Below are positions 1,553-28,288 of a DNA stretch of 48,307 bases, in pieces. Origin of the DNA: Chloroflexota bacterium. Lineage in GTDB: Bacteria > Chloroflexota > Anaerolineae > Promineifilales > Promineifilaceae. The position numbers and the translations under genes are program-made. Numbering within the stretch: position 1 is the stretch's first letter; each line of letters begins with the position of its first letter. The notes under the pieces were generated by a model, which ran no database searches, was not told the DNA's origin, and saw nothing but the letters and a program-made list of their open reading frames with translations. The DNA is taken from the NCBI GenBank assembly GCA_022616275.1, contig JAKEFB010000190.1, positions 1-48,307 on the forward strand, read 5' to 3'.

Positions 1553-2176
1553 TCAAGGTGGAACAGACGAGTGCGGTTGCCGATGATGACCATTCCCTTT
1601 GAAACTTGGCGACTGACGGCGGACTAGCAGTTCCTGGCGGTATAGTAGTTCGGCCTGGCGCGCGCGTGCCTTCTGAATCTGTACCCACTGCCGATTAATT
1701 ATCCGCTGATCAGGGTGACTACGCCTGGCAGTTGTCGCCGTAGAGGCAGCCTGCCAGGCAGCCAGGAAGGCGTAGAGGAGGTTGAGACCTCTTACCCCGG
1801 CGTAGAGACTAAGCGCAGAGCTAACAAGCACTGCCGCCAGATAGACGCGTTCCTGCAGTTCCAGGCTTAACTCGTTGCGTTTAGTCAGATATGCTACCTG
1901 AGCGTTCGCTTCGGCGATGGCAGCATTGGCACGGCCGTTGGTCTCAGTGATGGCAGCGTCAGTTTTCGCTGCCTGTTCGCGCGCGTACTGGGCCAGGTCA
2001 ATGCGGTTACGCTCGGCCGCGACCGTCGTTTGCATGTCTTGTTCTCGCGCTTCAGCTTGGCTTGTCCAGGGATTCAATACGTCGGTCTTGGCCGCGGACA
2101 GGCCGGCAAAAAAGCCCAGGCCCACCAGGACCACTACCGCAACTACAAATGCGCCGGTAAATATTTTGACTATCAT
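1553..2176 (-). CDS. Membrane-anchored coiled-coil protein, unknown function
   Basis: A 207-residue protein I do not recognise. It has an N-terminal hydrophobic helix (residues 4-24), then a long Ala/Glu/Arg-rich stretch (about 40-100) with heptad character, a second hydrophobic region (about 112-145), and a basic, Gln/Arg-rich tail. The start at 2176 is favoured over the upstream in-frame ATG at 2189-2191 because GGAGGAAAC, which overlaps that first ATG, is a strong Shine-Dalgarno site correctly spaced from 2176. The layout suggests a scaffold or stress-type membrane protein, but nothing points to a partner. A terminator follows the gene. Confidence 0.65.
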   Translation of the reverse strand: MIVKIFTGAFVVAVVVLVGLGFFAGLSAAKTDVLNPWTSQAEAREQDMQTTVAAERNRIDLAQYAREQAAKTDAAITETNGRANAAIAEANAQVAYLTKRNELSLELQERVYLAAVLVSSALSLYAGVRGLNLLYAFLAAWQAASTATTARRSHPDQRIINRQWVQIQKARARQAELLYRQELLVRRQSPSFKGNGHHRQPHSSVPP

Positions 2177-2338
2177 TTCAGTTTCCTCCATGAGTTGAAT
2201 TTAAAAGGTTTACGAATTCAGTCTGTCCTATTGTTTGGGAAGTCTTACTATCAATTTCACCTCCTCTATTCTTGACCTGCTGTAACTTTACTACCCACAT
2301 TAAACAGTTAAATAACGTTATACAGATTTAGACCAACA

Positions 2339-2373
2339 AAAAACGGGTTAAGCCTGACGCTTAACCCGTTTTT
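2339..2373 (-). terminator. Strong bidirectional terminator
   Basis: A perfect 15-bp stem has arms 2339-2353 and 2359-2373 (core ACGGGTTAAGC) around loop CTGAC. A-run and T-run flank it, so a U-tract follows in either direction. It lies just past the stop of the radical SAM gene and marks the 3' end of the five-gene minus-strand locus. Confidence 0.9.
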
Positions 2374-2399: not shown

Positions 2400-3872
2400 T
2401 CAGATGTACCTATGTGCCTTTAGTAACCGCAGGCCCTCTAAACGCAGAGCGGCCGGCAACAGCGTCTTATAGATGTGGCAGTGAGGGCTTTGCACATCCC
2501 ACCGGCCGGTGGCGCGATAAGTTTCCAGCGGGCATCCCCCAGAGCACCGGTAGCGAAATTCACAGGCGCGACAACCGTCTTTGTCGTCAACCGAGATGTT
2601 TTGGATAGGACCGGTGGCAACCATAGGTAGCAAGTCTCCTGCTAAAGAGTGGCTAACCGGCGAATCTAAATGCATCTGGCACTGAGCCAGCTTACCTTGA
2701 TGGGTAAGGACTAGGTAACTGTGCTGAACGCCACAGGTATGGGCATGAGCTTCGGCCTGGACCCGGTCGAGGAGGCCGTTGAAAAAGGGACGGGTTGGTA
2801 AAATGGCCTCAAATTCATTATAGGCGGCTAACATACCGCCGATAATAGCCTGTTCTTCCAGTTCAAGTTCGGCGCGAGAGGCAGAGAGAATGTTCTGGCG
2901 ATAAAAGTTTAAGCTAACTGGTAAATCGCGTTCTAAGGCCCAGCGAACGGCTGCGGCAGCCCCACTGGCATTCAGTCTGGTTAGGGTAATGGTGATGTCT
3001 GGCCGGATACCACGCGGTAAAAGGACCTGATCAACTGTTTTTTCAACCTGGTCGAACGTGTCGCCACCGCCCTTGAGCGGCCGTTGGCGGTTGTGCGCCT
3101 CGCCCACCCCATCTAAAGAGATCATGAGCTTGACGCCTGATTCGGCCAGCCAATCGGCGTCCTCGGCCCTAATGTGATAACCATTGCTCAACACCACTTC
3201 GCGCAAAGCCAGGCAGCTTTCCTCAGCCAGGGCCAACGCTGCCTGGTGCAACTGCCGCACCAGCTTAAAATGGAGGGTCGCTTCGCCGCCGGCATATTTC
3301 AACTTGACCCGTTGGAAATGGTGTCGCCTGGCCGTGTAAAAAATCTGCTCAATAGCCTTCAGGCCCGTAGCTTCGCTCATTCGTTCTGATGATTTGCGCA
3401 CGTAGCAATAAGGGCAGTCCAGGTTACAAGCGTTGGTAACGTGAAGCCAGGCGGTCAGCGTCTCAGGATTGAGGTACTGGGGGTGATGATGATCCCCGAC
3501 CGGTTGCAGTAAAGCCTGCGCTGCTAGTCGGCGATCAATCTCCTGGCTCAATGGTTGGGGTTGGCTAAAACTTTGCCATCGTTCCCACGCAGCCGGGTCT
3601 AAAACGCTGGGGCCGGCCGGAGCGTAGGGGCTAAACGCCAAGCGAAAGCCTTGCAGTAGGGGTTGCGTATGAGTGTGTGGCGTGCAAACAAAGTTCGTTT
3701 GCAAGACTGACTCGCAGGCGAAAGAGAAAGCTCTGTCAGGGCAGGCGCAATCGCTATCAATGCCTCCTGATTCTTGATCAAATGCCAGCAAAAAAGCTTT
3801 ATCAGGGCAGGCGCAGTCATCGTCTTTTTCACCAATTATTCCAGTCAATAGGACAGGCGCTTTCGCGTCCAT
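2400..3872 (-). CDS. Radical SAM/SPASM maturase with a duplicated CACPD motif at its N-terminus
   Basis: Predicted to reduce SAM at a [4Fe-4S] cluster to form a 5'-deoxyadenosyl radical, normally to modify a peptide or protein. The radical SAM cluster motif is C-N-L-D-C-P-Y-C near residues 149-156, then K-Y-A-G-G-E-A-T and a SPASM domain with Cys residues in TCGVQ, GCRACEFRYRCSGGCP and PHC. The first 100 residues are unusual: DDDCACPDKAF (17-27) and DSDCACPDRAF (39-49) form a 22-residue direct duplication, followed by another Cys pair and a short linker. That region could be a fused substrate, an extra metal site or a targeting region. Start ATG 3872 has AAAGGAGGGG 6 bases upstream, overlapping the stop of the STAND-TPR gene, so the two are translated as one operon. 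No separate precursor gene was seen. Confidence 0.85.
   Translation of the reverse strand: MDAKAPVLLTGIIGEKDDDCACPDKAFLLAFDQESGGIDSDCACPDRAFSFACESVLQTNFVCTPHTHTQPLLQGFRLAFSPYAPAGPSVLDPAAWERWQSFSQPQPLSQEIDRRLAAQALLQPVGDHHHPQYLNPETLTAWLHVTNACNLDCPYCYVRKSSERMSEATGLKAIEQIFYTARRHHFQRVKLKYAGGEATLHFKLVRQLHQAALALAEESCLALREVVLSNGYHIRAEDADWLAESGVKLMISLDGVGEAHNRQRPLKGGGDTFDQVEKTVDQVLLPRGIRPDITITLTRLNASGAAAAVRWALERDLPVSLNFYRQNILSASRAELELEEQAIIGGMLAAYNEFEAILPTRPFFNGLLDRVQAEAHAHTCGVQHSYLVLTHQGKLAQCQMHLDSPVSHSLAGDLLPMVATGPIQNISVDDKDGCRACEFRYRCSGGCPLETYRATGRWDVQSPHCHIYKTLLPAALRLEGLRLLKAHRYI
3726..3824 (-). repeat. 66-bp-period direct repeat encoding the doubled CACPD[KR]AF motif
   Basis: Two copies, 3726-3758 and 3792-3824, encode 11 residues each. 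TCAGGGCAGGCGCA recurs exactly at 3736-3749 and 3802-3815, a 66-base (22-codon) offset. The near-identity at DNA level points to a fairly recent tandem duplication within the coding region. Confidence 0.85.
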
Positions 3873-3887
3873 GAGCTTTCCCCTCCT

Positions 3888-6800
3888 TTACATGCCAACC
3901 ATCTGTGGTTCGTAATAATCGCCAAAGCAATCGAGCAAAAATCCCTCCAACTCACCGAAGTTTTCTGCCTGGATTTCCCTAATACGATACTTTTGGCTGG
4001 CTTCCCGTTCATAACGGTAGAAATCTTCCAGCTCAACGCTATTCAGATGCTTGAGAAAGTCGTAAAGAACGTCGTAGATCACGGTCAGGAAAACGGAACG
4101 AGGCGAGAATAGTTCGGCGTAGCCCAAGGCCTGGACATACGCCTCGGCCGCACCGTGTAAGTGCGCTTGCAAGGTCTCATTCCTATGAACCAATTGTTGT
4201 CGCTCAGCCGGTGTGGCATTTGGCTCGGCCACCTCTAGTTCTGCCGTTCCCTGTGTGAATGTGGTGATGGCCATCAGTCCTCGCAAGCTGTAGATTTTAC
4301 TCAACTGTTTAAAACAATAAGCGGGTTGCGCCTGGCGATCTGGTGGTGGCTGGTGTTCCTCAAAGCGCGAACCAGGAGGAATTAATCTCTCCGCTTTTTG
4401 CACGGCCACTTTCGTTTCGGCATACTCGCCAGCCAGATAGTAAGTCCAACCGATGTTCACCTGGGCGTCAAGTTCGAGACGCACCAGCTTGCTGTTGCCG
4501 GCCTCCCGGGCCGCTTCCGTCAGATAATGAAGGGCCCTGTCACGGCGTCGCTTCCAGGCGTCCGGCAAACGATCCTTGTCTGTATACCCCATCCAATCCC
4601 GGTAAAGGCAACCTGCTTCAATGTTGGCTTCAATGATCCGCACCCCTTCACCACCTGCTTCACTTTTCAGGAACAGTTCTCGAGCCTGCTCCAGAGCGCG
4701 CGCCGCTTCGCGGTAGAGGCGCTCTGGTGAATCGGGGCCTGTCACGCCAACAGCCAGACGACGCAACGCTTCTCCCAACTGCAGCAGCACCAGCCCCAAC
4801 AGGCGCGGGTCCTGGACCTGCTGGCCAATAGCCCAGGCTACAGCGCAGGCCTGCAGCGCCCCTTGCGGCTGATATAAGTCATTCATGATCAGGCCCAGAG
4901 TATTAAAGGAGTAAGCAATAGGTAGCCAATCCCCTAAACGGATTCGCAGTTCTAAAGCATCGCGGCAGACGCGAACAGCTCGCTTTTTGCCCATTTCTGC
5001 CAAAACACGCGATAGGTTATTTCGTGTTGTTGCTTCTTGGGTAGAAAGTAAAGGAAGGGGAGATGGTAAACGCCGCGTATACCCCAGCGAGGTAGTATAG
5101 GCATGAACCGCCTTTTGAAAGTCGCCTAAGGTCGTATAGCCGTAGCCTAGATTGTGATAAGCAGTGGCAACAACAAATAAGAGTCGAGGATAAGCGGGGT
5201 GGCCAATAAAACCCTTCTCGCCCTTTTCAGGAAAGACTAGAGTCTCTACATCCACCTGGCTTAACGCTTCCAGTCGTTGGGCAAATTCTTCCAGCCTAGC
5301 CACAGCCTGTTGTACATTTTTGCCTTGATAAATAACAGCGTATTCACGCCAAATTCCTCGTTCCGCTTCAGCCATTGTATGGCTCCAAGCGTGCCGCTCA
5401 TTGTCGTTCTTGAGATTCGCAACCGTTTCTTCAATCTGATTGGCCAGTTCAATAGCTCGTTCATACTCTTTGCGCAAGAAGAACCGCACGAGCCAATAAA
5501 TAGCGTCAATTGTTTGGGCCGCACGGCGCAGCACCATGATGGGTTGTTCTCCTCGTCCTATCAGGGCAGTGCGCGGCGGAATTTCAATGAACTCAAAAGC
5601 ATAGGGGTCATGCAAAACCCGCCACATCTCCGCCTGGAACATAGCCATCTGCTCTTCACGATAGGCAAGGACGCGGTCATTGGCCAGGTTGTAATAGGTT
5701 TCATTAAATTGCCGGTTGGGATCCAGCAAAAGAGAGTAATGAAGGTACTCCACCTCTGCGTTCAGTAATTGGGCGCCTAGCCAGGTGCGTCTCTCCTCCT
5801 CAATTGAGAGTGGGGGCGGCATATGCGTGTTGAGGATGCTAGGCGCCGGTTCAATCCGGATGCGGGCCAAATCGTCACGTACGGTTTCCGCATCTTGCCG
5901 GTAAAGCTTGAGTCTTAAATGGTCGGCCCACTCGCGCAGACGAGCATATCCTCGCTGGCGGGCCTCCATCTCTTTCTGGCGTGTTTCCTCTTCGGCCGAC
6001 ATTGCCTCCGCATAAATGCGATACATCTCGTCCTGTAAAACTAGACGGCCGCCTGGCTTTGGTTTAATAATAGAAAGCACGCGTAAGCTCTCCATTTCAC
6101 TTCTGATTTCTTCCATTCTTTGCGGGTCGGCCTGCCACTCTTCGGCCGTATCCGTTGGTTCACTATCCAGGATAAAGTGGAGCTGCTCGGCCGTCAGGCC
6201 CGGTTTAGAACGAGCCAAAGCGTGTAGTATCCGGGCGCGCAAATCGCTGCCCGCGCCAAAGAGAATTTGCACAAACTCAGCTTCTATTTCCTGGCGGGCC
6301 TTGGTTAAGGCCGGTGTTTCTGTTGTTCCATCACTATCTGTTCTTTTGCGAGCTTCCTCAAAGGAGGTATCCTGCAACGGTTCGGGAACTCGCCCTTCTA
6401 CCAGGATATCGGTATACAAAGCCAAACGGATGGGCTGTCCGCCCGTATAAAGCCAGAAGGCTTTCAGATGGTCCTCATTGCTGGTCAGCACACTTAAAAC
6501 GTGGCGAATATGGCTGGCAGCAGCCCTAGCCTCCTCGCCTTGAGCCAAAGATGCCGAGTCATCACAAATCGCCTGAAAGTATTGCCGAGTCTCATCCTCG
6601 GTAAACGGCGGTACCCTGATAGAGATCAGCTCACAGCCCTTACCAGCTTCCTGTACGGCCTGCCGTAGCAGTTCAAAGTAGGGACCACCTTTTTTTTCTC
6701 GCCCGGCAATAAGCAGCGTGGTGTTTACAAATCTGCCGGCGTGAATCTGATCCAGCAACCATTGTTGAGTATTAAAGGTTAAATCTTCCGGCCGGAGCAA

Positions 6801-7370
6801 GCCTTTCTGAATCAACCACTCTGAACTGATGGTGGCCAATTGTTCTGTGGTGTCAATCGGTATGACCAGCCGACATTTTCGGGCGGCCGCCTGGAAATCT
6901 TCCCAGAAAGCGGCCTCGGCCGCTTCAGAAGCCGGCCCGGCCAGGGTATAAGCAGCGCCGGCGTCGGCCACGCGCCGCCAGCGATCATGCGCCATCTGAT
7001 AGTCGCTAAAAGCTATCTTTTCATCCCAAGTTTCTGGATCCCCCAGCTTTTCCAACAGGTATTCGCGTGTGTGCAGCCGGACATCCACCAGGTCTAGAAG
7101 ATCGGCAAAAAGCACGGCCGGCTCTATCCGTGACCAATCCTCGGCCGGTGTGGGCGTCCCATACATTCCCCGTAAAGCTTTATGCCCCATGCGTCGCAGT
7201 GCTTCTTCCAGGAGGCGCGTTTTACCCAGGCCGCCACCGCCCTCGATCAAGACAACACGGCAGGCCCGCCCTTTGCCGTACATGGCTTGCTTGATCCTTT
7301 CCATCTGCTCCACCCGGCCGATGAGATCGTACGGCCGGCTGGCAGCCGCTAACAAAAATTGAGCAGACAT
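3888..7370 (-). CDS. Large STAND-type ATPase with TPR-like C-terminal repeats
   Basis: A 1160-residue signal-transducing NTPase. The N-terminal STAND/AAA module has Walker A E-G-G-G-G-L-G-K-T (residues 43-51) and a hydrophobic Walker B-like strand near residue 195 (LVIPIDTTEQ, Asp in place but no following acidic pair). Winged-helix-like segments follow, then about 500 residues of helical TPR-like repeats (for example Y-H-N-L-G-Y-G-Y-T-T-L-G-D-F-Q-K-A). Such proteins usually sense a ligand through the repeats and oligomerise on ATP binding. Start ATG 7370 follows GGGAGGAAGAG; a longer frame to 7463 would overlap the upstream gene and lacks a comparable site. It lies 16 bases after the EAD-NTPase gene and 15 bases before the radical SAM gene, so it is an operon member. 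Confidence 0.85.
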   Translation of the reverse strand: MSAQFLLAAASRPYDLIGRVEQMERIKQAMYGKGRACRVVLIEGGGGLGKTRLLEEALRRMGHKALRGMYGTPTPAEDWSRIEPAVLFADLLDLVDVRLHTREYLLEKLGDPETWDEKIAFSDYQMAHDRWRRVADAGAAYTLAGPASEAAEAAFWEDFQAAARKCRLVIPIDTTEQLATISSEWLIQKGLLRPEDLTFNTQQWLLDQIHAGRFVNTTLLIAGREKKGGPYFELLRQAVQEAGKGCELISIRVPPFTEDETRQYFQAICDDSASLAQGEEARAAASHIRHVLSVLTSNEDHLKAFWLYTGGQPIRLALYTDILVEGRVPEPLQDTSFEEARKRTDSDGTTETPALTKARQEIEAEFVQILFGAGSDLRARILHALARSKPGLTAEQLHFILDSEPTDTAEEWQADPQRMEEIRSEMESLRVLSIIKPKPGGRLVLQDEMYRIYAEAMSAEEETRQKEMEARQRGYARLREWADHLRLKLYRQDAETVRDDLARIRIEPAPSILNTHMPPPLSIEEERRTWLGAQLLNAEVEYLHYSLLLDPNRQFNETYYNLANDRVLAYREEQMAMFQAEMWRVLHDPYAFEFIEIPPRTALIGRGEQPIMVLRRAAQTIDAIYWLVRFFLRKEYERAIELANQIEETVANLKNDNERHAWSHTMAEAERGIWREYAVIYQGKNVQQAVARLEEFAQRLEALSQVDVETLVFPEKGEKGFIGHPAYPRLLFVVATAYHNLGYGYTTLGDFQKAVHAYTTSLGYTRRLPSPLPLLSTQEATTRNNLSRVLAEMGKKRAVRVCRDALELRIRLGDWLPIAYSFNTLGLIMNDLYQPQGALQACAVAWAIGQQVQDPRLLGLVLLQLGEALRRLAVGVTGPDSPERLYREAARALEQARELFLKSEAGGEGVRIIEANIEAGCLYRDWMGYTDKDRLPDAWKRRRDRALHYLTEAAREAGNSKLVRLELDAQVNIGWTYYLAGEYAETKVAVQKAERLIPPGSRFEEHQPPPDRQAQPAYCFKQLSKIYSLRGLMAITTFTQGTAELEVAEPNATPAERQQLVHRNETLQAHLHGAAEAYVQALGYAELFSPRSVFLTVIYDVLYDFLKHLNSVELEDFYRYEREASQKYRIREIQAENFGELEGFLLDCFGDYYEPQMVGM

Positions 7371-7386
7371 CTTTTTCTCTTCCTCC

Positions 7387-8916
7387 CTAAATCTCCCATG
7401 AAACACTAGGCTTATGTTGTTGACAGACGCGCAACAGGTCATCAACCCGTCCATGTCGCTCACAGTATTTGATCAGTTCTATAATTTTGAGCAGTTTGGT
7501 GTCGCCAGATAAATTGTCGTAATCTATTCTCAAGCTATGAACAAGAACTCGAAGTTCATTTCTGTCAAAATGCCTATCCATGAGATAATGCAGCTCACTT
7601 GGTTGTAGGGTGATGACAGCGATCTCAAGCTGGCTCAATTGCCAATCTTTTTCTCGATACATTTTCATAAGCAAGTTAGCCGCCTCCGCGCCCATTTCCA
7701 GCGTGACCAGCCACCTTTCCGGCTTTACTTCCGGCACGCGCCGGATATCACCAGGTTCAACGCCTATAGCGCTGGATAGAGTAAATATCAAGTGCTCCTC
7801 TGGTATAGGTTCTGTGGTCTTTAATGCGACTCTCGTGCGAATATCCAAAGCGGCACGCACAAATTCGCGGACTCCGTCAGCAATCTTGTAACGGTTTTTG
7901 GTGATGTTCACAACCAGCCAGTTGTCAATAAGCGGCTGAGCGCGCTGCCAGGCCTTTGTACTGGAAACCCCCAACCAATCGGCAACCTCTTCAATCACCC
8001 ACTCGTCGGCAAAATCGGCGATCCCAACAAGCAAAGCGATCATCTCTTGTGGTGAGTCTGGCGCAAGTGGGTTTAAGGAGTACAACGCCATCTCCAGGTA
8101 ATCGGAACCGCGAAGCACATCTGGGCCATCTAACTCAGGATTGGCCTCGACAAGAAGGCAGAGAAAGGTATTTAAACCTGGATGGGTCAGGTCATAACCA
8201 GTTAACCTGGCCAGTATACGCTCTACTTTTTCTGCGACTCCTGGTGAAGCTTTTGTTAAGGCTTCAATCTGTTGTCGGCCCTGGGGCGCTTCTCCATGAA
8301 TATCCTTAGCCAGAATTTCCAGGCGGAGCGGGGTTTCGCTAAAAAGTAGAGGGATCGACCGAACAAGTTGTTTATCCCGCAACGCGATTACGAAGCGCAA
8401 GGATTCCTGGCGGGCAAAAGAGTCCAGGATGGCAAGCTCGAATTTGCGCCAGTCAGCCTCAAGAAGCAGGTCCCCCTCATCTACAAACACACAAATCGTT
8501 TTACCTGGCCAGCAGTTGTAAACGATCTCGTTGCCAATGGTTTCGATTAATACTGACGTTTCAGCGGCCGGGTCGAAAGTAGGAATGTTGCCGCATGTTT
8601 GCTGCAATTCAGCGATAAAGCTCCGTAACCACTCATTGACTCGTTCCGGATTTAGCCGGCGAAGGCCCGTCATCGGCGGATTGGGTGGTAGCGATAAATC
8701 CCTAATGTCTATCCAAAGACAAACTACACCGTTTTCGTTAAATTCTTCACGTACCCGGTTGAGAAACCATGTCTTGCCGGTCGCCGGCAGGGCCGTGACG
8801 GTTAGCACGCGCTTTGAACCGGCTAACCATTCCCTGGCAGCCTGGAGTTCGGTCTCGCGCTCCACGTAGAGGGCATGTTCGTAGGGTATTCGAATGTCGA
8901 GTTCTTCAGGATCCAT
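7387..8916 (-). CDS. STAND-like NTPase with winged helix and C-terminal effector-associated (EAD) domain
   Basis: 509 residues. A P-loop sits at A-L-P-A-T-G-K-T (residues 42-49); the first Gly of GxxxxGKT is Ala here, a degenerate Walker A. Walker B is likely I-C-V-F-V-D-E-G-D near 147-155. A winged-helix segment (E-E-V-A-D-W-L-G-V-S) lies near residue 315-380. The last about 70 residues match the effector-associated, Death-like domains known from bacterial conflict systems: H-F-D-R-N-E-L-R-V-L, then I-D-Y-D-N-L-S-G, K, E-L-I, E-R-H-G-R and a final P-x-V-S-W. The subtype (EAD7 in my recollection) is not certain. These domains recruit effectors by like-with-like contact; no protein in the window shows an obvious partner copy. 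It is the third gene of the locus, 30 bases after the second. Confidence 0.8.
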   Translation of the reverse strand: MDPEELDIRIPYEHALYVERETELQAAREWLAGSKRVLTVTALPATGKTWFLNRVREEFNENGVVCLWIDIRDLSLPPNPPMTGLRRLNPERVNEWLRSFIAELQQTCGNIPTFDPAAETSVLIETIGNEIVYNCWPGKTICVFVDEGDLLLEADWRKFELAILDSFARQESLRFVIALRDKQLVRSIPLLFSETPLRLEILAKDIHGEAPQGRQQIEALTKASPGVAEKVERILARLTGYDLTHPGLNTFLCLLVEANPELDGPDVLRGSDYLEMALYSLNPLAPDSPQEMIALLVGIADFADEWVIEEVADWLGVSSTKAWQRAQPLIDNWLVVNITKNRYKIADGVREFVRAALDIRTRVALKTTEPIPEEHLIFTLSSAIGVEPGDIRRVPEVKPERWLVTLEMGAEAANLLMKMYREKDWQLSQLEIAVITLQPSELHYLMDRHFDRNELRVLVHSLRIDYDNLSGDTKLLKIIELIKYCERHGRVDDLLRVCQQHKPSVSWEI

Positions 8917-8946
8917 AACCTCATTCCCCTTCTGGCTGGACCGCTA

Positions 8947-10221
8947 TCATAGGGGAGAGGGTTGGGGGTCGCCGTAGCTCCACACTCGACGCATTTGTTG
9001 CCAATCACCGGCTGTTATCGTGGGTTCTGTCGGTGCCCGGCCGGCGTGGGCGTCAATCAACGTTTGCGCCACCCATAATAAACGGCGCGGTGATTGATGC
9101 GCTGAACCAACGATGGCACGATCAAGTTGCTCTGCAACTTCCCGGCTGGCCAATGTGTCAAATCCCCGTATCCAACTCCTCCCGGCACTCCGAAAGCGGT
9201 TTTCAATCAAATTTTGTAACGCTGCTGGATCATCCCAGGTAATTATGCCAGAGAAAACCTTCTCTGGCAATACCCCAGGTGGCAGCTTTTCGACAACCGA
9301 TTGTAAACGCTGCGGCAGGAAGAATTTTAAGGATAAGGGGAAAGGGGTGGATAGTGAGGATAAAGCCTTCAACAACAGTTGAACGTACGTCCCGACTTGA
9401 AGCGCTTGCTGCTCGGTAACATCCACGACGTCAACCAGCAGAAATGCCTGCTTAAAGCCTAGTTGTTGCGCCAGGGCCAGGCCACGCTGGAATTGTGATT
9501 CATCATTCTGCTTTAGTGAACTTATAGTGCTTTTAGCCGCGATCAATTCTCTCAAAAAATGATTTAACCCGGCCGTCAACGGCGCATAGCGAACAACAGC
9601 CCGTTTCCAGGTAGCCCACCAGGTTGAAACGTCTGTTTTCTGTGAGGACTGCTCTCTCAGCAGGTGGCGACTTAAGTTGCGGTGAAAGGAGGGTATATTG
9701 GCTTGCCAGTATTGTCCCAACGCTTCAAGGATGTTTGCTTCCACTGTAGAGCCAAACGCATTGAACTGCTCTAAGAACTGAACAAATAAGTCTGTGGCCA
9801 GCGCCTGTGATAAATCTATCCAGGGCGGTTGGTTGGTTAGATCGGTCTGCTTACCTTTACCAATGGTATGGGAAATAACAAGGGTCCGGTCCGGTATAGC
9901 CCGGCACAAGGCTTCAAGTTGATACCGCAACGTCGTTTTGCCACTGCCTGCCTGTCCATAGATGAAGGCTGCCTCCGGCTCTTTTAACCTATCCAGCAAC
10001 GGCTGTCCGCCAGATGCAGGGTGCTGCTCCACAACGTATGGTGGCTCTACAAAGTAAGAGAAAAAGGGTGGATCTTCCGGCGTTACCTGAAGTTCTAACT
10101 CGGCCGTTGCATAGGCAAACGGATCATGCTTAAGCTTAAGTGTTCCTTTCAGGTATCGTTCTCGCCTTGAACTCTTAAATGCCTCTCCAACCTCTTCCCG
10201 GCTTGCCCTATTCGTATTCAT
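8947..10221 (-). CDS. P-loop ATPase, second gene of the STAND locus
   Basis: A 424-residue AAA/STAND-like ATPase related to the gene at 10559-11872. It opens with K-H-D-P-F-A-Y-A-x-A-E-L-E, followed by Walker A G-Q-A-G-S-G-K-T-T and a Walker B-like strand (F-L-L-V-D-V-V-D). Unlike its neighbour it has no recognisable winged-helix C-terminus. The start is uncertain. ATG 10221 is chosen for its codon, but an in-frame TTG at 10257 adds 12 residues and has purine-rich sequence upstream; neither has a clean Shine-Dalgarno site. About 300 bases separate it from the first gene, so it may have its own promoter. The next gene starts 30 bases after its stop. Confidence 0.75.
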   Translation of the reverse strand: MNTNRASREEVGEAFKSSRRERYLKGTLKLKHDPFAYATAELELQVTPEDPPFFSYFVEPPYVVEQHPASGGQPLLDRLKEPEAAFIYGQAGSGKTTLRYQLEALCRAIPDRTLVISHTIGKGKQTDLTNQPPWIDLSQALATDLFVQFLEQFNAFGSTVEANILEALGQYWQANIPSFHRNLSRHLLREQSSQKTDVSTWWATWKRAVVRYAPLTAGLNHFLRELIAAKSTISSLKQNDESQFQRGLALAQQLGFKQAFLLVDVVDVTEQQALQVGTYVQLLLKALSSLSTPFPLSLKFFLPQRLQSVVEKLPPGVLPEKVFSGIITWDDPAALQNLIENRFRSAGRSWIRGFDTLASREVAEQLDRAIVGSAHQSPRRLLWVAQTLIDAHAGRAPTEPTITAGDWQQMRRVWSYGDPQPSPL

Positions 10222-10331
10222 GACTACAGCTAAGGTGATAAAGTGATGAGATAACAAGGCTTCGACCTAACGGACCTCAGCCGGAAGGATGAAGAAAACG
10301 TCACTTTATGACCGTGGTGAATACATCTCAT

Positions 10332-10397
10332 TTAACCCTCTTGGTAGTTCCAAAAGTAACACGCCATAACGACAGATACCTTACATGAATCAAACAT
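10332..10397 (-). CDS. Possible 21-residue peptide, unknown
   Basis: ATG 10397 opens a 21-codon frame ending in TAA at 10332-10334, reading M-F-D-S-C-K-V-S-V-V-M-A-C-Y-F-W-N-Y-Q-E-G. AGAGGG stands about 9 bases before the start. It lies in the gap of a radical SAM-containing locus and has two Cys and aromatic residues, so it is worth noting as a possible peptide substrate, but it lacks the CACPD motif and such a frame can arise by chance. Confidence 0.15.
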   Translation of the reverse strand: MFDSCKVSVVMACYFWNYQEG

Positions 10398-10432
10398 AAA
10401 GCTCACACCCTCTAAAAATAAGACTTAAGTAC

Positions 10433-10442
10433 TACTGAAGTA
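10433..10442. promoter_or_regulatory. TACTRAAGTA palindrome, copy 1 (candidate operator)
   Basis: TACTGAAGTA, extended to CTACTGAAGTAG at 10432-10443, has 5-bp arms around a 2-base centre. The same 10-base word (R = A or G) occurs at 10540 and 10658. A plausible reader is the winged-helix ATPase encoded just upstream on the same strand. Confidence 0.45.
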
Positions 10443-10539
10443 GGACTAAATACAGCGTAAACAAAGTTTTGCGAACTTTTCACAAACTATTTCAAGCGGT
10501 TTGCAGTGATTAAAACTTGGGATTACTTACTTTACGGTG

Positions 10540-10549
10540 TACTAAAGTA
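10540..10549. promoter_or_regulatory. TACTRAAGTA palindrome, copy 2 (candidate operator)
   Basis: TACTAAAGTA lies 10 bases beyond the stop of the winged-helix ATPase gene, 98 bases from copy 1. The shared palindromic sequence suggests one regulator binding several sites. Confidence 0.45.
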
Positions 10550-10558
10550 GTGAAGGAT

Positions 10559-11872
10559 TTAAAGAATGAAATTCTCCAACCAATAGCCCTGGTCGCGGCG
10601 GTTATGCAAATATATATTCGTCCCCTTAACCGGTTCTAATTCTTCTCGCAAGCGGTTTACTAAAGTATTAAGGTTTTGCCCGCTTCCGCCCGCCACTTCA
10701 AGTAAAGCGTCTGGATTTGGCTGCCCTTTTAATTCAAACAGCTTCCTTAAAATCTCAAAAGGTTGTTTATGAAGGGTGCGAAATTGTGGCCCGCGCCAGA
10801 CACCCTGTTTATCTGGTTCTAACCGCAAAGGAATGTGCCGCTGATAGAAAACACGAATCGCCGCTTCTGAGTCCGATAACTTATCGTCACTCGGTTGGGC
10901 GCTGTACATAGCCAATAGGGCCTCGGCCCAGTTTAACCAACCAGACAGGGTTGACGTGCCATAAAGCTGCTCAATTTCTTCTTTTCCTCGCTTTAAGACA
11001 GTCGAATCTGCCAGGTGGTCCAAATTTGGGCATTCATTGTCAGTAGCTACCCGTAGATAGTGGCGCACGATGTGATCAACTGTTGCCTCAGAATAGTCTA
11101 GGCGTATCAAATTCAACCGGCCGCTAGTGGCAGCCACAATTTGCCTTTGAATAACATCCATTTCCGGTAAGGCTGCCCGGATCGCGTAGCCTGGCAATTC
11201 CATTAAATCTAGCCAGCTAAAGAGCGTAATGATGTCGTCAAGGTACTTGATAACATCTACTTGTTCCAAGTCAATCAATAACAAGGTTTGTTCATAGCCT
11301 AACGCTTGGGCTAATTCAACTAATTCCCCGAGTTGCCCCCATACGTCAGCTTCTTGGGTACCGCTCGGGTAAAAATCTTCTATGGTTGCTGGAATTTCCA
11401 TAGGAGTTTCTACTGATTGGTTCAGGCGATAACCCAGTCGAACCAAAGTCCGCCGGCGGAGGTGCTTTTCAACCAACCAAAACAGGAATTCCTTTTGGAT
11501 TGGATTCAACACAGTAAATTTTGTAGGGGCTTTCTCCAAACGTTCGGTTATTTCTGTAGCAGCAGCAGCCATTATCTGGCTGACATGGCCCAAACCGGGC
11601 ATCCAAGGACGCTTTCCTTGCGGCCAATTCTGTATAGGATAAGAAACTAGTAAAGTTCTATCAGCAACCGACTGCTTTAGAGCAGCTAGTGCGGTTGACT
11701 TACCGCTGCCCGAACCACCTGTGACAGCCGCCGAACCTTGAGTGCCAATAAAGCTTTCGATGGCCAGCGTTGGCACGAAACAATGCTGCCACCATTGGGT
11801 GTTCTCCTCTGGGGTGCGAACATGCGCTGGTAAAAAGGGCCAGCGATGATACTTAAAGCTCGTAGCCCTCAT
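10559..11872 (-). CDS. P-loop ATPase with C-terminal OmpR/PhoB-type winged helix
   Basis: 437 residues, probably the first gene of the locus. Walker A is G-G-S-G-S-G-K-S-T (residues 53-61) and the Walker B-like strand is T-L-L-L-I-D-L-E-Q-V-D near residue 207. The C-terminus (about 345-437) reads as a winged helix of the OmpR/PhoB type: I-L-R-K-L-F-E-L-K-G, L-N-T-L-V-N-R-L-R-E-E-L-E-P as recognition helix, and a wing ending R-D-Q-G-Y-W-L. This architecture, an NTP-controlled DNA binder, fits a regulator of the locus, and TACTRAAGTA palindromes lie at and after its 3' end. ATG 11872 has no Shine-Dalgarno site; a candidate promoter directly upstream would give a leaderless mRNA. Confidence 0.8.
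   Translation of the reverse strand: MRATSFKYHRWPFLPAHVRTPEENTQWWQHCFVPTLAIESFIGTQGSAAVTGGSGSGKSTALAALKQSVADRTLLVSYPIQNWPQGKRPWMPGLGHVSQIMAAAATEITERLEKAPTKFTVLNPIQKEFLFWLVEKHLRRRTLVRLGYRLNQSVETPMEIPATIEDFYPSGTQEADVWGQLGELVELAQALGYEQTLLLIDLEQVDVIKYLDDIITLFSWLDLMELPGYAIRAALPEMDVIQRQIVAATSGRLNLIRLDYSEATVDHIVRHYLRVATDNECPNLDHLADSTVLKRGKEEIEQLYGTSTLSGWLNWAEALLAMYSAQPSDDKLSDSEAAIRVFYQRHIPLRLEPDKQGVWRGPQFRTLHKQPFEILRKLFELKGQPNPDALLEVAGGSGQNLNTLVNRLREELEPVKGTNIYLHNRRDQGYWLENFIL
10658..10667. promoter_or_regulatory. TACTRAAGTA palindrome, copy 3, inside the winged-helix ATPase gene
   Basis: TACTAAAGTA lies within the 3' part of the coding region, 118 bases from copy 2. CAAGCGGTTT directly overlaps it (10649-10658) and also occurs at 10493-10502 in the gap, so more than the palindrome may be repeated. 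Confidence 0.35.
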
Positions 11873-12042: not shown

Positions 12043-12321
12043 ATGGACGACACGACTAAACACGAAGTGGCTCGCCGGCTGGCCAGCGCGACCGGCCACC
12101 TGAAGGGGATTGAGAAGATGGTCAACGAGGATGCCTACTGCATTGACCTCATTCGCCAGATCCAGGCCGTCCAGGCGGCGCTCAGCAAGGTGAGCACGAT
12201 GATCCTGGACAACCACCTCCACCACTGCGTCACCACGGCTATCCAGGGTGAGGACCCGGCCGAGCGGGAGCGCGTGCTGCAAGAAGTGACCAGCGTCTTT
12301 GCCGTGTCGGCCAGGCCGTAA
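12043..12321 (+). CDS. csoR: CsoR-family copper-sensing repressor
   Basis: A 92-residue all-helical repressor (formerly DUF156) that binds the G-tract operator and releases it when it binds Cu(I). The copper ligands are in place: C33, H58 and C62 show the C-x24-H-x3-C spacing of CsoR (C36/H61/C65 in the Mycobacterium protein). The early G-H-L-K-G-I-E motif is also typical. Start ATG 12043 follows AGGAGA at a suitable distance. The gene heads an operon with a copper chaperone and two copper ATPases, with its operator directly upstream, so copper is a better assignment than nickel or formaldehyde, the other ligands of this family. Confidence 0.93.
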   Translation: MDDTTKHEVARRLASATGHLKGIEKMVNEDAYCIDLIRQIQAVQAALSKVSTMILDNHLHHCVTTAIQGEDPAERERVLQEVTSVFAVSARP

Positions 12322-12324
12322 ACT

Positions 12325-12401
12325 GTAGTTGTGTGATTATGTAGGTATGTAAAGCATCACGTAACTACACAACCACATAACTACATAACCACATACCTAT
12401 T
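12325..12401. repeat. Word-type palindromic spacer 1
   Basis: The spacer between csoR and the chaperone gene is made of short related words (GTAGTTGTGTG, TATGTAGGTATG) on the left and their approximate complements (AACTACACAACC, ACTACATAACC, CATACC) on the right. It folds as an imperfect hairpin. The layout is the same as at 12648 and 26481, but the sequence differs. Confidence 0.6.
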
Positions 12402-12418
12402 CAAAGGAGAGTTTTACC

Positions 12419-12637
12419 ATGCCAAGCAAGACCTTTACCGTTCCCAAGATTCATTGTGGCCACTGCACTCATACCATTGAGATGGAAGTGGGTGATCTGC
12501 CGGGGGTCAAGAGTGTCAAGGCCGACCAGGACAGCCGGCAGGTGACGGTGGAGTGGGATTCCCCGGCCACCTGGGAGCAAATTGAGAAGACGTTGGTGGA
12601 GATTAACTACCCGCCGGCGCAGTTGATTCAGATTTAG
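12419..12637 (+). CDS. copZ: Copper chaperone-like HMA protein
   Basis: A 72-residue heavy-metal-associated domain with the metal site in I-H-C-G-H-C (Cys13 and Cys16). The usual Met before the first Cys is replaced by His, and an extra His lies between the cysteines. It should fold as beta-alpha-beta-beta-alpha-beta and pass Cu(I) to the N-terminal domains of CopA encoded next. Start ATG 12419 has AAAGGAGAG upstream. Its place between csoR and copA supports the copper role. Whether the His/Cys site prefers Cu(I) or also binds other metals cannot be told from sequence. Confidence 0.88.
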   Translation: MPSKTFTVPKIHCGHCTHTIEMEVGDLPGVKSVKADQDSRQVTVEWDSPATWEQIEKTLVEINYPPAQLIQI

Positions 12638-12647
12638 TGCGGTTGGC

Positions 12648-12704
12648 GGTTGATAGTTGATAGTTGGTAGCGAACTATCAACTGTCAACCATCAACTATC
12701 AACC
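12648..12704. repeat. Word-type palindromic spacer 2
   Basis: Tandem GTTGATA words on the left (12648-12665) are mirrored by ATCAACTATCAACC on the right (12691-12704). They form a long imperfect hairpin filling the gap between the chaperone gene and copA. Confidence 0.65.
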
Positions 12705-12716
12705 AATTAGGAACCG

Positions 12717-15224
12717 ATGTCCGAAAAGCAACTGACTTTGCCCGTCATAGGCATGACCTGCGCCAATTGTGTGGCCACGGTGGAGCGCAACGCTAAGAAA
12801 GTGGCTGGCGTCAGCGAGGCGGTGGTCAACTTCGCCAACGAGAAGGTAACGATCACTTACGACCCGGCCGTGGCCAGGCCGCAAGAGGTTATCGAGCGCA
12901 TCCACCGGGCCGGCTACCAGGTGCCGACGGCCACCGTCGTGCTGCCGCTGCAAGGGATGACCTGCGCTAACTGCGCCAATACCATCCAGCGACGGCTGAA
13001 CAAGGTGGACGGCGTCCTGGAAGCGACGGTCAACTTGGCCAGCGAAAAGGCGACGGTGACCTACGCCGTGGGCGCGACCGGCCGGGCCGAGTTGGTAGCG
13101 GCCGTGCGCCAGGCCGGCTACGACGTGGTCGAAGCGCAGGGGGGAGAAGAGTTAGAAGACGCCGAAGCGGCCGCCCGCGAGGCGGAAATCCGCCACCAGT
13201 GGCGGCGCTTCATCGTCGGCGCGATCTTCTCTTTCCCCCTACTGATCCTGAGCATGGCCCGCGACTTTGGCCTGCTGGGCGCGTGGGGCCACGCCGGCTG
13301 GGTCAACTGGCTCTTCTTTCTCATGGCCACGCCGGTCCAGTTTTACGTCGGCTGGGACTATTACACCGGCGGCTACAAGAGCCTGCGCAACGGCAGCGCC
13401 AACATGGACGTGCTGGTGGCCATGGGCTCCTCGGCCGCCTATTTCTATAGCGTCGCCGTCCTCGTGGCCGTGAGCCTGCTTGGCTCCCACGCCCTGGGGA
13501 TGCACGTCTACTTTGAGACCTCGGCCGTCATTATTACCCTCATCGTCTTGGGCAAGTTGCTGGAAGCGCGAGCCAAGGGGCACACCAGCGAAGCGATCAA
13601 GAAGCTAATGGGGCTGCGGGCTAAGACGGCCCGCGTCGAGCGCAACGGCGTCGAACGCGACATTCCTATCGAGGAAGTGGTTACCGGCGACGTGGTCATT
13701 GTCCGGCCGGGGGAGAAAATCCCGGTGGACGGCCGGGTCGTCGAGGGCCGGTCGGCCGTGGACGAGAGCATGATTACCGGCGAAAGCCTGCCGGTGGATA
13801 AGAAGGCCGGCGACGAAGTTATCGGGGCGACGATCAACAAGCAGGGATTACTCAAATTTGAGGCCACCCGGGTCGGCCGGGAGACGGCGCTGGCCCAGAT
13901 TATCCGGCTGGTAGAACAGGCCCAGGGCAGCCGGGCGCCGATCCAACGGCTGGTAGACCAGGTCTCGGCCTATTTTGTGCCCATTGTCATTGGCCTTGCC
14001 CTGCTGACCTTTGCCGCCTGGCTCCTGAGTGGCGCCGGCTTCACCCCGGCCCTCATCCGGCTGATTGCCGTGCTGGTCATTGCCTGCCCCTGCGCCATGG
14101 GGCTGGCCACGCCAACCTCCATTATGGTCGGCGTGGGCAAAGGGGCCGAGCAGGGCATCCTGTTTAAGAACAGCGCCGCCCTGGAGCAGGCCCACAAAAT
14201 TAACGCCGTCATCCTCGACAAAACCGGCACCATTACCAAAGGTGAGTTGTCGGTCACCGACGTGGCCATTTCCGATTTTGGATTTTCGATTTTCGACTTA
14301 GATCCACAGTCAGCCGATCAATCCAAAATCCAAAATCTAAAATCTAAAATCCTCCACCTGGCTGCTTCGGCCGAGCGCGGCTCCGAACATCCATTGGGCG
14401 AGGCCATTGTCCGGGCGGCGCAAGAACAGGGGTTGGCCTTGAGCGCCCCGGCCGCTTTCGAAGCCATCGCCGGGCACGGCATCACCGCCCAGGTGGACGG
14501 CCGCCAGGTGTTAGTCGGCAATTTGCGCCTGATGCAGCGGGAAAAAGTGGCCCTCAACGGCCTGGGGCCAAAAGCCGAAGAATTGCAAAACCAGGCCAGG
14601 ACGGCCATGTGGCTGGCCGTAGACGGCCAGGCCAGCGCCGTCATTGGCGTGGCTGATACCATTAAGGAAAGCTCGAAAGAAGCCATTGCCACCCTGCGCC
14701 AACTGGGGCTGACAGTGGTGATGATTACCGGCGACAACGTAGCCACGGCCCAGGCCATTGCCGGCGAAGTGGGCGTGGACCGGGTGATGGCCGAGGTGTT
14801 GCCGGGCGACAAAGCCACCTACGTGGCCACATTGCAGGCAGAAGGGTACGTCGTGGCCATGGTCGGCGACGGGATTAACGATGCCCCGGCGCTGGCCCAG
14901 GCCGACGTAGGCCTGGCCATCGGCACCGGGACGGACGTGGCCATGGAGACGGCCGACGTGACCCTGATGCGGGGCGACCTGCGCAGCGTGCCCCAGGCGA
15001 TCAAACTGTCCAGGGCGACGATGCGGAATATCAAACAAAACCTGGCCTGGGCCTTCGGCTATAACGTGGCCCTCATCCCGGTAGCGGCTGGCGTCCTGGC
15101 TCCTTTCGAGTGGGCGCCCGCTTTTCTACGCCAGTTGCACCCCATCCTGGCCGCCGGAGCAATGGCCTTCTCCAGCATCAGTGTGGTATCGAATGCGTTG
15201 CGGCTTAGAGGGTTGCGGTTGTAG
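12717..15224 (+). CDS. copA: Cu(+)-exporting P1B-type ATPase
   Basis: An 835-residue pump that exports Cu(I) from the cytoplasm using ATP. Two N-terminal HMA domains each carry G-M-T-C-A-N-C (residues 13-19 and 79-85). Next come membrane helices, an actuator domain with T-G-E-S, the transmembrane metal site C-P-C (V-I-A-C-P-C-A-M-G), the phosphorylation motif D-K-T-G-T, the nucleotide-domain S-E-H-P-L-G, and the hinge G-D-G-I-N-D-A-P. All key residues are present. Oddity: between [10 protein letters not shown] and H-L-A-A-S-A-E-R-G the protein carries about 25 extra residues (S-D-F-G-F-S-I-F-D and so on) encoded by a palindromic element at 14274-14350, in frame. The start has only AGGA nearby. 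It is the core of the copper operon. Confidence 0.95.
14274..14350. repeat. Palindromic word element inserted in frame within copA
   Basis: GATTTTGGATT at 14274-14284 is exactly mirrored by AATCCAAAATC at 14320-14330, and further GATTTTCG/CTAAAATC words flank it. Local composition drops to AT-rich inside a GC-rich gene. The reading frame stays open through the element. Confidence 0.75.
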
Positions 15225-23321: not shown

Positions 23322-25373
23322 ATGAGTTCACCACAAGGTACAGCTATTCTTGATAAGATCAAGGAACTGCAAGATACCAGTGGCTTTCGCGATTTGCATT
23401 GGGAGGGGAGTTTTACCGACTACCTGGATATCGTCCGCCAGGATCCCCAGGTAGCCCGTACAGCCTACCAGCGCCTGCACGACATGATCGTTTCCCAGGG
23501 CTATGAAGAGTACAACCGTAACCGCGAAAGCCTGATTCATTACCGCTTCTTCGACGACCCCTTTGAAAACGGCCGCGATGCTGTCTTTGGCATTGACAAG
23601 CCGTTGATGGACCTGGTGCAAATCTTCCAATCGGCGGCGCGCCACTACGGCACCGAACGGCGGGTGATTTTGCTGCACGGCCCGGTGGGCACGGCCAAAA
23701 GCACCATCGTGCGCCTGCTCAAAAAGGGGTTGGAAGCCTATTCCCGGACCGACGAAGGCCGGGTGTACACCTTCTACTGGTCGCCGGACGGCGGCGAACG
23801 CATGGATTGCCCCATGCACGAAGAGCCGCTGCATCTGATTCCCCCCGAGTTCCGGCCGGTGGTTTTACGGGAGCTGAGCAATGGCCCGACCGTCGCCTTC
23901 CAGATAGACATCGAGGGCGAGTTGTGCCCCGCCTGCCGCTTTATCTACAACGAATTGCTGGAAAAGGCGCACGGTGATTGGACCGAGGTGGTGCGCCAGA
24001 TAAGGGTCCGCCGCCTGCTATTATCGGAGAAAGATCGGGTTGGTATCGGTACTTTCCAGCCCAAGGATGAAAAGAACCAGGATTCCACCGAGCTGACGGG
24101 CGACATCAACTACCGCAAGATTGCCGAGTATGGCTCCGATTCCGATCCCCGAGCCTTTAACTTTGATGGGGAACTAAATATTGCCAACCGGGGCCTGGTT
24201 GAGTTTATTGAAATCTTAAAACTGGACGTCGCCTTTTTGTATGACCTGCTCACCGCCTCCCAGGAACACAAAATTAAGCCCAAGAAATTTGCCCACACCG
24301 ACATAGACGAGGTCATCCTGGGCCACACCAACGAGGCCGAGTACCGCCGGCTGCTTAGCAACGAATATATGGAGGCGCTGCGCGACCGGACGATCAAGAT
24401 TGACGTGCCCTACAACACCCGCTTCAGCGAAGAAGTGAAGATTTATGAGCGGGACTTCAACAACCGGCGCGTCATCGGCAAGCACATCGCCCCCCACACG
24501 CTGGAAATTGCCGGCCTGTGGGCCGTCCTGACCCGGCTGGAGGAGCCGAAACGGGCCGGCCTGACGCTGCTGCAAAAGTTGAAGCTGTACGACGGCCGGT
24601 CACTACCCGGCTTTACCGAGGACAGCGTCATCGAGCTGCAGTTTGAAGCCCGGAACGAAGGTATGTTTGGTATTTCGCCGCGTTACATCCAGGACAAGCT
24701 GTCCAACGCCCTGGTGAGTGACCAGAGCCGGACCTGCCTGAACCCATTTATGCTCATGCGCGAACTGGAGGCCGGCCTGAAGCACCACTCCCTGATTACC
24801 GGCGACGAACAACGTACCCGCTACCGGGAGTTATTGAGCGTGGTGCGCGACGAGTTTGACGAAATTGTAAAAAACGAAGTGCAGCGGGCGATTACGGCCG
24901 ATGAAGAAGCCGTTAAACGCCTGTCGGCCAACTACATTGACAACGTCAAAGCGTATACCCAGCGGCAAAAGGTCCGCAACCCCTTCACTGGCCAGGACGA
25001 GCCCCCCGACGAGCGCCTGATGCGCTCTATTGAGGAAAAAATAGAAATCCCGGAAAGCCGCAAGGACGATTTCCGGCGCGAAATCATGAATTACATTGGC
25101 GCGCTGGCTATCGAGGGCAAGACCTTTAGCTGGAATTCAAACGAGCGGCTACGCCGGGCTTTGGAGCTGAAGCTGTTTGAGGACCAGAAGGATTCAATCA
25201 AATTGACCAGCCTGGTCTCGAACGTAATAGACGAGGAAACGCAGCAAAAAATTGACGTCGTCAAGAGCCGCATGATGAAAAACCAGGGTTACTGTGATGT
25301 CTGCGCTACAGACGTGCTGAATTACGTGGCCAGCATCTTTGCCCGGGGCGATACGAAGGAGCGACTGGCATGA
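23322..25373 (+). CDS. prkA: PrkA-type AAA+ serine kinase/protease
   Basis: A 683-residue protein of the PrkA (YeaG) family, AAA+ ATPases reported as serine protein kinases and, in Bacillus, also as a protease. Walker A is G-P-V-G-T-A-K-S-T (residues 120-128) with the family's Ala before Lys. C-P-M-H-E-E-P-L near residue 163 and C-P-A-C-R-F near 208 are typical conserved blocks, and the C-terminal half carries the PrkA-specific helical domain. The length fits the family (about 640-690). Start ATG 23322 follows GGAGG at about 13 bases, with AGAAGAAG between. Its stop overlaps the yeaH start by 4 bases (ATGA). The prkA-yeaH-spoVR order is a widely conserved stress/stationary-phase operon. An ECF-type promoter lies upstream. 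Confidence 0.95.
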
Positions 25374-26476: not shown

Positions 26477-26480
26477 AGTG

Positions 26481-26575
26481 GCAGGTCGCAGGGGGCAAGG
26501 GCAAGTCTGCGAGTGGCGAGTAGGTAAGTGAGCAAGTGACTCGCAAACTCGCAAACTCGCAGACTCGCAACCTGC
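26481..26575. repeat. Word-type palindromic spacer 3
   Basis: GCAGGT (26481-26486) and ACCTGC (26570-26575) close the element. Inside, GTCTGCGAGT is exactly mirrored by ACTCGCAGAC, and ACTCGCAA words repeat in tandem. It fills most of the gap between yeaH and spoVR, two genes expected to share one message. Confidence 0.65.
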
Positions 26576-26596
26576 TAACGATTAAGGGTATTGGTA

Positions 26597-28166: not shown

Positions 28167-28288
28167 AACTTAAGTTGCCAGTGCGTGTGTCTGTCGGCGC
28201 CGGGTGTCTGCCAGCACAGTGTCAGAGATGCTGTAATTTCCAGTTCGCCCCCTTCTCAGTCAAGTGGTCAACCAACAGGATCGTTGTG

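Follow-up and report, generated by a model that had tools for sequence, protein, structure and literature searches.

Radical S-adenosylmethionine (SAM) maturases encoded beside genes for proteins resembling nucleotide-binding leucine-rich repeat (NLR) receptors have been noted earlier, and the peptide in those systems was suggested to be a toxin or a signal (Kaur 2020, PMC7159879). The nearest description among those compared with the locus presented here is that of the FxSxx-COOH systems (Kaur et al. 2020 eLife, PMC7159879), in which the radical SAM/SPASM maturase FxsB is tied to a TIR/AP-ATPase-tetratricopeptide repeat (TPR) protein and which the authors see as a conflict-response amplifier. 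The present locus consists of five minus-strand genes in the order A-B-C-D-E and lies in a window of 48,307 nucleotides (the whole stretch of DNA analysed, contig JAKEFB010000190.1 of the Chloroflexota bacterium assembly GCA_022616275.1). Common to it and to the FxSxx systems are a radical SAM/SPASM enzyme, a protein of the AP-ATPase/TPR type, and TIR and MinD/ParA-like modules around these. Unlike in those systems, the maturase (E) falls below the FxsB cut-off (48.6 bits, 47.7 on a repeat search, against 370), the proposed core peptide lies inside the enzyme, and the nucleoside triphosphatases (NTPases) A, B and C and an effector-associated domain (EAD), EAD7, are additional. The locus is regarded as a variant within the peptide-linked conflict systems that combine signal transduction ATPases with numerous domains (STAND) and radical SAM enzymes.

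Ranthipeptide maturation offers a second point of comparison: PapB makes a Cys-Asp thioether in the CX3D motif of PapA (PMC9413430). The same motif occurs twice in the N-terminal tail of E, on the enzyme itself and not, as in the PapA/PapB pair described there, on a separate peptide. The borosin OphMA is reportedly a self-methylating fusion of enzyme and core peptide in one chain, with a methyltransferase, a C-terminal core and no NLR partner; E would resemble it in joining an enzyme and a proposed core, the core here being N-terminal and the enzyme a radical SAM protein. The substrate of CteB, the SCIFF maturase, is a separate peptide. The alignment of E with CteB (PDB 5why/5wgg) starts where the tail of E ends.

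Based on these comparisons and on features read from the sequence, namely the gene set, its co-inheritance, the swapping of effector modules, a tail motif under selection in close relatives and the predicted folds, the locus is interpreted as an NLR-like conflict system of the abortive-infection type in which E is a self-tailed maturase of the kind that acts on ribosomally synthesized and post-translationally modified peptides (RiPPs). We give this overall interpretation a probability of about one half. Defence or conflict as such is the probable purpose of the locus. Among the open-licence matches listed, judged by titles and abstract starts, no account of the gene set or of a radical SAM maturase carrying its own core was found, in agreement with an earlier note on this DNA which knew of no system with this composition. 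The FxSxx-COOH precursor model gave no match in the window's own genome, and its control gave none either. The five locus proteins, and those of the three genes closest to E on its outer side, matched no family named MoxR or vWA, as in the VMAP ternary systems. The genes are as follows.

11872-10559, minus strand: gene A, 437 amino acids (aa), first of the set; P-loop ATPase with a probable C-terminal OmpR-like winged helix
10257 (TTG) or 10221 (ATG) to 8947, minus strand: gene B, P-loop ATPase
8916-7387, minus strand: gene C, 509 aa, NTPase with C-terminal EAD7
7408-7593, minus strand: EAD7 domain of C (Pfam)
7370-3888, minus strand: gene D, 1160 aa counted from ATG, STAND (NB-ARC-like) NTPase with TPRs
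3872-2400, minus strand: gene E, 490 aa, CteB-like radical SAM/SPASM maturase

The maturase and its N-terminal tail

The product of gene E was matched by the Pfam radical SAM model (1.4e-14), and its best NCBIfam match was PapB (NF047865, 1.7e-29). The SPASM pattern reads CX(9-15)GX4C...CX2CX5CX3C...C; seven cysteines of this type lie downstream of the CX3CX2C motif in E. In an alignment of 52 rows the positions C380, G393, C398, C434, C437, C443 and C465 were invariant and C447 was conserved in at least 90%. The Pfam SPASM model itself matched only 7 of the 52 relatives, and the PqqD model none of the 52 E proteins. Viperin (pVip) was considered as an identity for E and rejected: the PADLOC pVip match (3.5e-16) covers residues 143-305 only, the NCBIfam viperin model gave 50.5 against a cut-off of 180 bits, and SPASM-type cysteines are present. 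The following features were located in E.

3405-3428, minus strand: CX3CX2C radical SAM cluster motif (C149, C153, C156), invariant in the 52-row alignment
3498-3683, minus strand: RiPP recognition element (RRE)-like domain (residues 64-125, approximately), assigned only by its fold, which matches the N-terminal part of CteB
3684-3872, minus strand: tail, residues 1-63, outside the CteB alignment, with a predicted strand at residues 8-10
3801-3818, minus strand: first DCACPD (CX3D) repeat of the tail, proposed core
3735-3752, minus strand: second DCACPD (CX3D) repeat of the tail, proposed core

Relatives of E were collected at several depths. Used as a query, E matched 44 of 400 Chloroflexota genomes at 1e-30 or better and, in a class-wide sample, 48 of 298 genomes at 1e-60; a plasmid collection held no relative at 1e-20. 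A genome pattern scan, which reaches only close relatives, returned seven loci, all titled Chloroflexi or from lineages which belong to Chloroflexota. The 70 loci with full-length E analysed below were drawn from three sources: 47 other places of the E search, in one of which E is truncated; seven contigs of the pattern scan, five of them full and two cut; and 18 further usable places taken from the class-wide matches. Left out were L001-L032 (short copies of loci covered at greater length, or weak paralogues), L107 (its contig being as long as that of L033), three loci with E cut (L038, L039, L085) and one without E (L125).

The CteB-like fold begins after the tail, at residue 64, and the predicted local distance difference test (pLDDT) of the model is below 50 at residues 14-41, which suggests that the tail is partly disordered. 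The two repeats stand in the contexts DDDCACPDKAF and SDCACPDRAF. This Cys/Asp tail, which had escaped the earlier note, is lacking in two radical SAM paralogues of the same genome (L002, L003). Across the 70 loci, Cys is preceded by D, E or N in 66 tails and by D in 61, against DC in 8 of 308 control open reading frames (ORFs; the first 75 residues of the other long ORFs of the same loci). The tails contain 118 DC pairs, compared to 24.7 after shuffling (maximum 39, 1000 shuffles), 142 cases of D or E directly before Cys, compared to 38.5 (maximum 51), and 65 CX3[DE] motifs, spread over 37 tails, compared to 36.4 (maximum 54, 300 shuffles); the tails being related, these tests overstate their independence. 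A stricter motif set was present in 48 of 73 E matches and in none of 210 matches of other families. Cysteine accounts for 5.4% of the tail in the 52 relatives, for 0.7% of the next 80 residues and for 2.4% of the remainder. The tail of L052 lies outside the called ORF start, where upstream frames show the motif; this locus was counted as lacking it.

Among the window and the five relatives closest to it, selection has kept the repeats unchanged inside a fast-evolving tail. Over 180 codon comparisons the repeats showed 65 synonymous and no nonsynonymous differences, compared to 134 synonymous and 299 nonsynonymous differences over 715 codon comparisons in the tail outside them. Since the enzyme combines an RRE-like domain with an N-terminus of its own that bears a strand resembling a leader and a CX3D repeat under selection, modification of E by itself is the simplest interpretation, and judging from these sequence features we lean towards it.

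Alternatively, the tail could be a metal (Zn, Fe-S) or redox (disulfide) switch which gates E, with E modifying another protein such as D or an effector. Many tails are rich in CxC, in variable number (54 of 70, against 6 of 308 controls), as can be the case in metal- or redox-binding tails, and no peptidase that could release a product was recognised. A Cys-Asp pair, however, suits the frozen unit D-C-A-C-P-D of the window's clade better than a Cys-Cys pair does: in L109, two of three repeats read DDCYAPD and DDCFAPD, the second Cys being replaced but the Cys and Asp of the proposed pair retained. In 34 of 49 tails, compared to 10.4 expected, a hydrophobic strand-like stretch lies ahead of the first D/E/N-Cys, as a leader would, and the nearest maturase family has CX3D as its motif. 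Taken together, these observations leave a switch somewhat unlikely.

It could also be argued that E acts on a peptide encoded elsewhere which lacks the DCAC motif, the tail serving only for docking or inhibition. RRE-type maturases normally modify separate peptides, and in one genome E lies on a different contig (L063) from A-D (L125), so it may act in trans there. Searches for a separate precursor with motifs like those of the tail gave little to favour one. A DNA pattern for DCACP occurred at seven places in the window's own genome, two of them in E and the other five read as chance frames (the reversed control pattern matched once), and no separate precursor with the tail motif was recognised there by this pattern. 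Within 6 kb of E in the 70 loci, 53 short ORFs (18-260 aa) carried DCxC, C[AD]C or paired DC, the motifs to which this search was limited; by eye they formed no cross-lineage family, and some were near-copies from close relatives (L072/L074/L077). The selection acting on the tail motif points the same way, and a substrate encoded elsewhere is considered unlikely.

Gene D and its linkage to gene E

The product of gene D was matched by the Pfam TPR_12 model above its cut-off and by AAA_16 below it. A P-loop, a Walker B motif (DT), a GxP motif and an MHD-like (LHDE-type) motif were identified; in an alignment of 46 rows G47, G49, K50, D173, T174, P313 and D447 were invariant and G311, L445 and E448 were conserved in at least 90%. 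The predicted model (pLDDT 91.4) matched the NTPase of MalT, the NB-ARC domains of plant NRC2/NRC1, the archaeal STAND-TPR protein 6mfv and peptide-binding TPRs. With NRC2/NRC1, MalT and 6mfv it shares the NTPase, GxP and LHD-type motifs, and with MalT and 6mfv also the TPR-type repeats. Based on this model D is predicted to have an NB-ARC-type fold, which the earlier note had not mentioned. Unlike those receptors, D has no effector domain fused to its N-terminus; modules of this type are supplied by C, by the gene before A, or through EAD7.

A D profile (A3) matched 43 of the same 400 genomes at 1e-80. Scoring was limited to the top two candidates in each genome, and the thresholds of 1e-30 and 1e-80 were chosen by us. 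As the profile derives from D genes adjoining E, it is biased towards D genes of that kind. The sets of genomes with E and with D overlap in 42 (Fisher p 2.7e-53, relatedness not corrected). In both genomes with E only, E sits at the contig end. In the sole genome with D only, G011, the gene behind A-B-C-D codes for another radical SAM protein (L153:9642-11084; 27 bits with the profile of E), which gives the impression that some radical SAM enzyme is required at this place.

Gene D adjoins gene E in 64 of the 70 loci, in 58 upstream on the same strand and in six convergently, with gaps of up to 1.8 kb. This is the opposite of a radical SAM family found mainly without the ATPases, the outcome that would have spoken against a common system. 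Of the six remaining loci, five have a contig end less than 2 kb upstream of E; the sixth is L063, mentioned above. The distances between D proteins correlate with those between E proteins (0.55 over 62 loci; permutation maximum 0.17). A gene reading by eye like a GNAT acetyltransferase lies between D and E in L114 (12795-13409), and a similar GNAT-like gene, also recognised by eye, directly precedes E in L116 (3661-4224), where D is cut by the contig end.

Gene C and the exchange of effector modules

The EAD7 domain of C scored 63.6 bits against a gathering cut-off of 32, and AAA_16 fell below its cut-off. The earlier note's candidate, a STAND/EAD-type system with a radical SAM member, is supported as real and conserved, the radical SAM gene being a constant part of it. 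The P-loop of C had been described as degenerate, which holds in part: in the window Ala replaces the motif's first Gly, but the GK pair (G47, K48) and D146, a putative Walker B Asp, are invariant in 38 of 38 C proteins. Gene C is present in 56 of the 70 loci, and EAD7 was matched in six of the 38 proteins. The window belongs to a clade of six (tree support 100/99) in which the C proteins end in an EAD7-type domain and none of the six loci has a large same-strand gene directly 5' of A.

Such a gene, encoding 593-1329 aa and absent from the earlier description, directly precedes A in 19 of the 32 loci with A/B genes. Its product carries CHAT in L043 and L060 (the only two confirmed by Pfam), TIR in L121, EAD7 in L113 and a ParA-like domain in L112; most of these proteins are without a named N-terminal domain. 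Gene C itself encodes CHAT in L061, TIR in L056, and EAD7 plus CHAT in L055. A further family, c4, adjoins C or E in genomes of the f30 family and was seen in 11 of the 70 loci. Its member in L058 has a PNP_UDP_1 phosphorylase domain and that in L069 has TIR with a weak SIR2 match; with 2 of 18 members scanned, the label 'PNP' for the family is a loose one. Judging from these domain matches, effector modules (CHAT, TIR, PNP-type phosphorylase, EAD7) swap at C, at the gene before A and at the flanks while D and E stay constant. The suggestion that the radical SAM enzyme might be the effector was rejected on the same observation.

In the window's own genome EAD7 was matched 23 times above the cut-off, on contigs C10, C85, C127, C150, C194, C221, C241, C281 and others (L127-L149). 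Ten of the proteins were scanned, revealing fusions to TCAD9, SIR2_2, NACHT (two), nSTAND1, Roc-COR, a response regulator and an AAA domain; two of the ten showed EAD domains only, and several frames ended at the edge of the examined stretch. One 756-aa frame on C150 was matched by both EAD7 and CHAT, EAD7 scoring 31.8 bits and passing the cut-off only when counted with its neighbours. The EAD7 domains closest to that of C are in an EAD7-AAA protein (C10) and a TCAD9-EAD7 protein (C194). Matches with such different partners look like a genome-wide adaptor network. According to the EAD principle, EAD-bearing proteins recruit effectors with matching EADs (Kaur 2020, PMC7159879). By analogy, the EAD7 of C should recruit EAD7-bearing effectors encoded elsewhere in the genome, and this principle is the basis on which C could pair with the proteins listed above.

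A function in peptide signalling or differentiation, in which E makes a secreted or intracellular modified peptide sensed by D in the manner of a Rap/NprR-type receptor, with no part in defence or death, is a further alternative. Gene product B, however, is distantly related to a family apparently named for the validated anti-phage system DS-41, and the CHAT, TIR, phosphorylase, SIR2-like and EAD7 modules are of the kinds known from conflict systems (in part Kaur 2020). A pure signalling role is accordingly regarded as quite improbable.

Proposed mechanism

In an NLR-like conflict system with a self-tailed maturase, D would be the sensor or switch, a STAND NTPase with a TPR array shaped like known peptide binders, and C an NTPase adaptor or effector carrier. 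E would be a RiPP-type maturase whose own N-terminal tail serves as leader and core. The hydrophobic strand of the tail would dock on the RRE-like domain, the CX3D repeats would enter the active site, and Cys-to-Asp thioether cross-links would form as with PapB. The modified tail, released or attached, would then be read by the TPRs of D. D is proposed as the reader because it is the near-constant partner of E and has a TPR array of peptide-binding shape; this step is put forward tentatively, as a possible one. The mark could hold D off, as a guarded indicator of an intact, reduced and SAM-replete cell, or it could arm D. Upon a trigger D would assemble with C, and the recruited effectors, delivered by C or by the gene before A, would stop the cell. 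The fixed pair D-E would provide sensor and mark, the variable part the weapon, and A and B would be accessory ATPases, A perhaps a regulator. In its most specific form the proposal is rather doubtful: a bacterial NLR would guard self-cross-linked E as its ligand, and D would be freed to recruit EAD7-coupled effectors when the mark is lost, or appears, in infection.

Several observations weigh against this interpretation. The score of E with the PapB model, 103.1 bits, is far from the cut-off of 340. CX3[DE] is lacking in 33 of the 70 tails; those of the f25 family carry NDCR-type motifs instead, so a single fixed cross-link cannot fit all, the called tail of L076 is without Cys, L118 and L120 have HCAC, and the tails of the f30 family are looser. 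Among the flanking families, which were annotated in part, no gene was recognised for a peptidase or exporter by which a peptide could be released. As a single query the window's D matched 10 of the 400 genomes (1e-10), the figure of 43 requiring the profile, and its resemblance to peptide receptors is one of TPR shape only. In one genome (L063/L125) E and A-D are on separate contigs. For the window, PADLOC gave only pVip for E and weak matches for C, A and B, and no phage-defence neighbourhood was seen around the locus.

If the proposal is true, the locus would encode a RiPP with precursor and maturase in one chain, and its self-modifying radical enzyme would be new to the RiPP field. Innate immunity would then be switched by a covalent mark of radical origin, a new way to set an NLR switch. 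The likely substrate can be read directly from the sequence as the two CX3D repeats which the enzyme carries, and the effector swaps around the fixed D-E pair provide ready natural variants.

Genes A and B

The products of genes A and B fall into the same sequence cluster; G57 and D201 of A are invariant. A was matched by AAA (P-loop) and B by P-loop models only, in each case below the Pfam cut-off. The winged helix which the earlier note had assigned to A was below the cut-off in the window (Trans_reg_C, a winged helix-turn-helix model, 0.018) and was recovered at 0.01 or better in 13 of the 32 A/B relatives. Genes of this type are present in 32 of the 70 loci. B was matched by NF053860 (DS41_1) at 1.4e-24 and 86.9 bits, far below the cut-off of 370 bits, and is a distant relative of the DS41_1 anti-phage protein and of Sll1717 ATPases. 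We take this model to be named after the system DS-41. DS-41 is among the systems of DefensePredictor (PMC13092281).

Locus organization and neighbouring genes

The intergenic gaps are 30 bases (B-C), 16 bases (C-D) and 15 bases (D-E), and one terminator hairpin follows E, as the earlier note had stated along with the coordinates of the five genes. The gap between A and B is 301 or 337 bases, depending on the start of B. An alternative GTG start of D at 7463 would overlap C. Purine-rich stretches resembling ribosome-binding sites were seen by eye 5' of D and of E. Two features lie 3' of E.

About 2339-2373, minus strand: intrinsic terminator 3' of E, 15-bp hairpin, -21.9 kcal/mol, with a T run
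1553-2191, minus strand: protein of family c11, 3' of the terminator, with hydrophobic and coiled-coil-like stretches (by eye)

The terminator is absent from the listing of a generic terminator scan, probably because the T run forms part of the stem. Family c11 recurs 3' of E in four other loci (L041, L078, L079 and L080). With c11 after E and the extra large gene before A in many relatives, the gene set is larger than the five genes described earlier.

The genes flanking the locus on both sides (copper-type, non-ribosomal peptide synthetase and others) look unrelated to it, but the same gene order in dozens of genomes refutes the idea that ATPases and a radical SAM gene without relation to each other have come together by chance; its probability is negligible. 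Divergent from A, on the plus strand at 12043-15224, are ORFs whose translations suggest a copper P-type ATPase, a heavy-metal-associated protein and a repressor of the CsoR type. PrkA kinase, DUF444 and SpoVR genes lie in a row on the plus strand at 23322-28075, followed at 28175-32023 by a gene for a HEAT-repeat protein with a cyclic-nucleotide-binding domain. On the minus strand, positions 32027-41780 hold a two-gene non-ribosomal peptide synthetase with condensation, adenylation and carrier domains and a sulfotransferase-like domain at its end.

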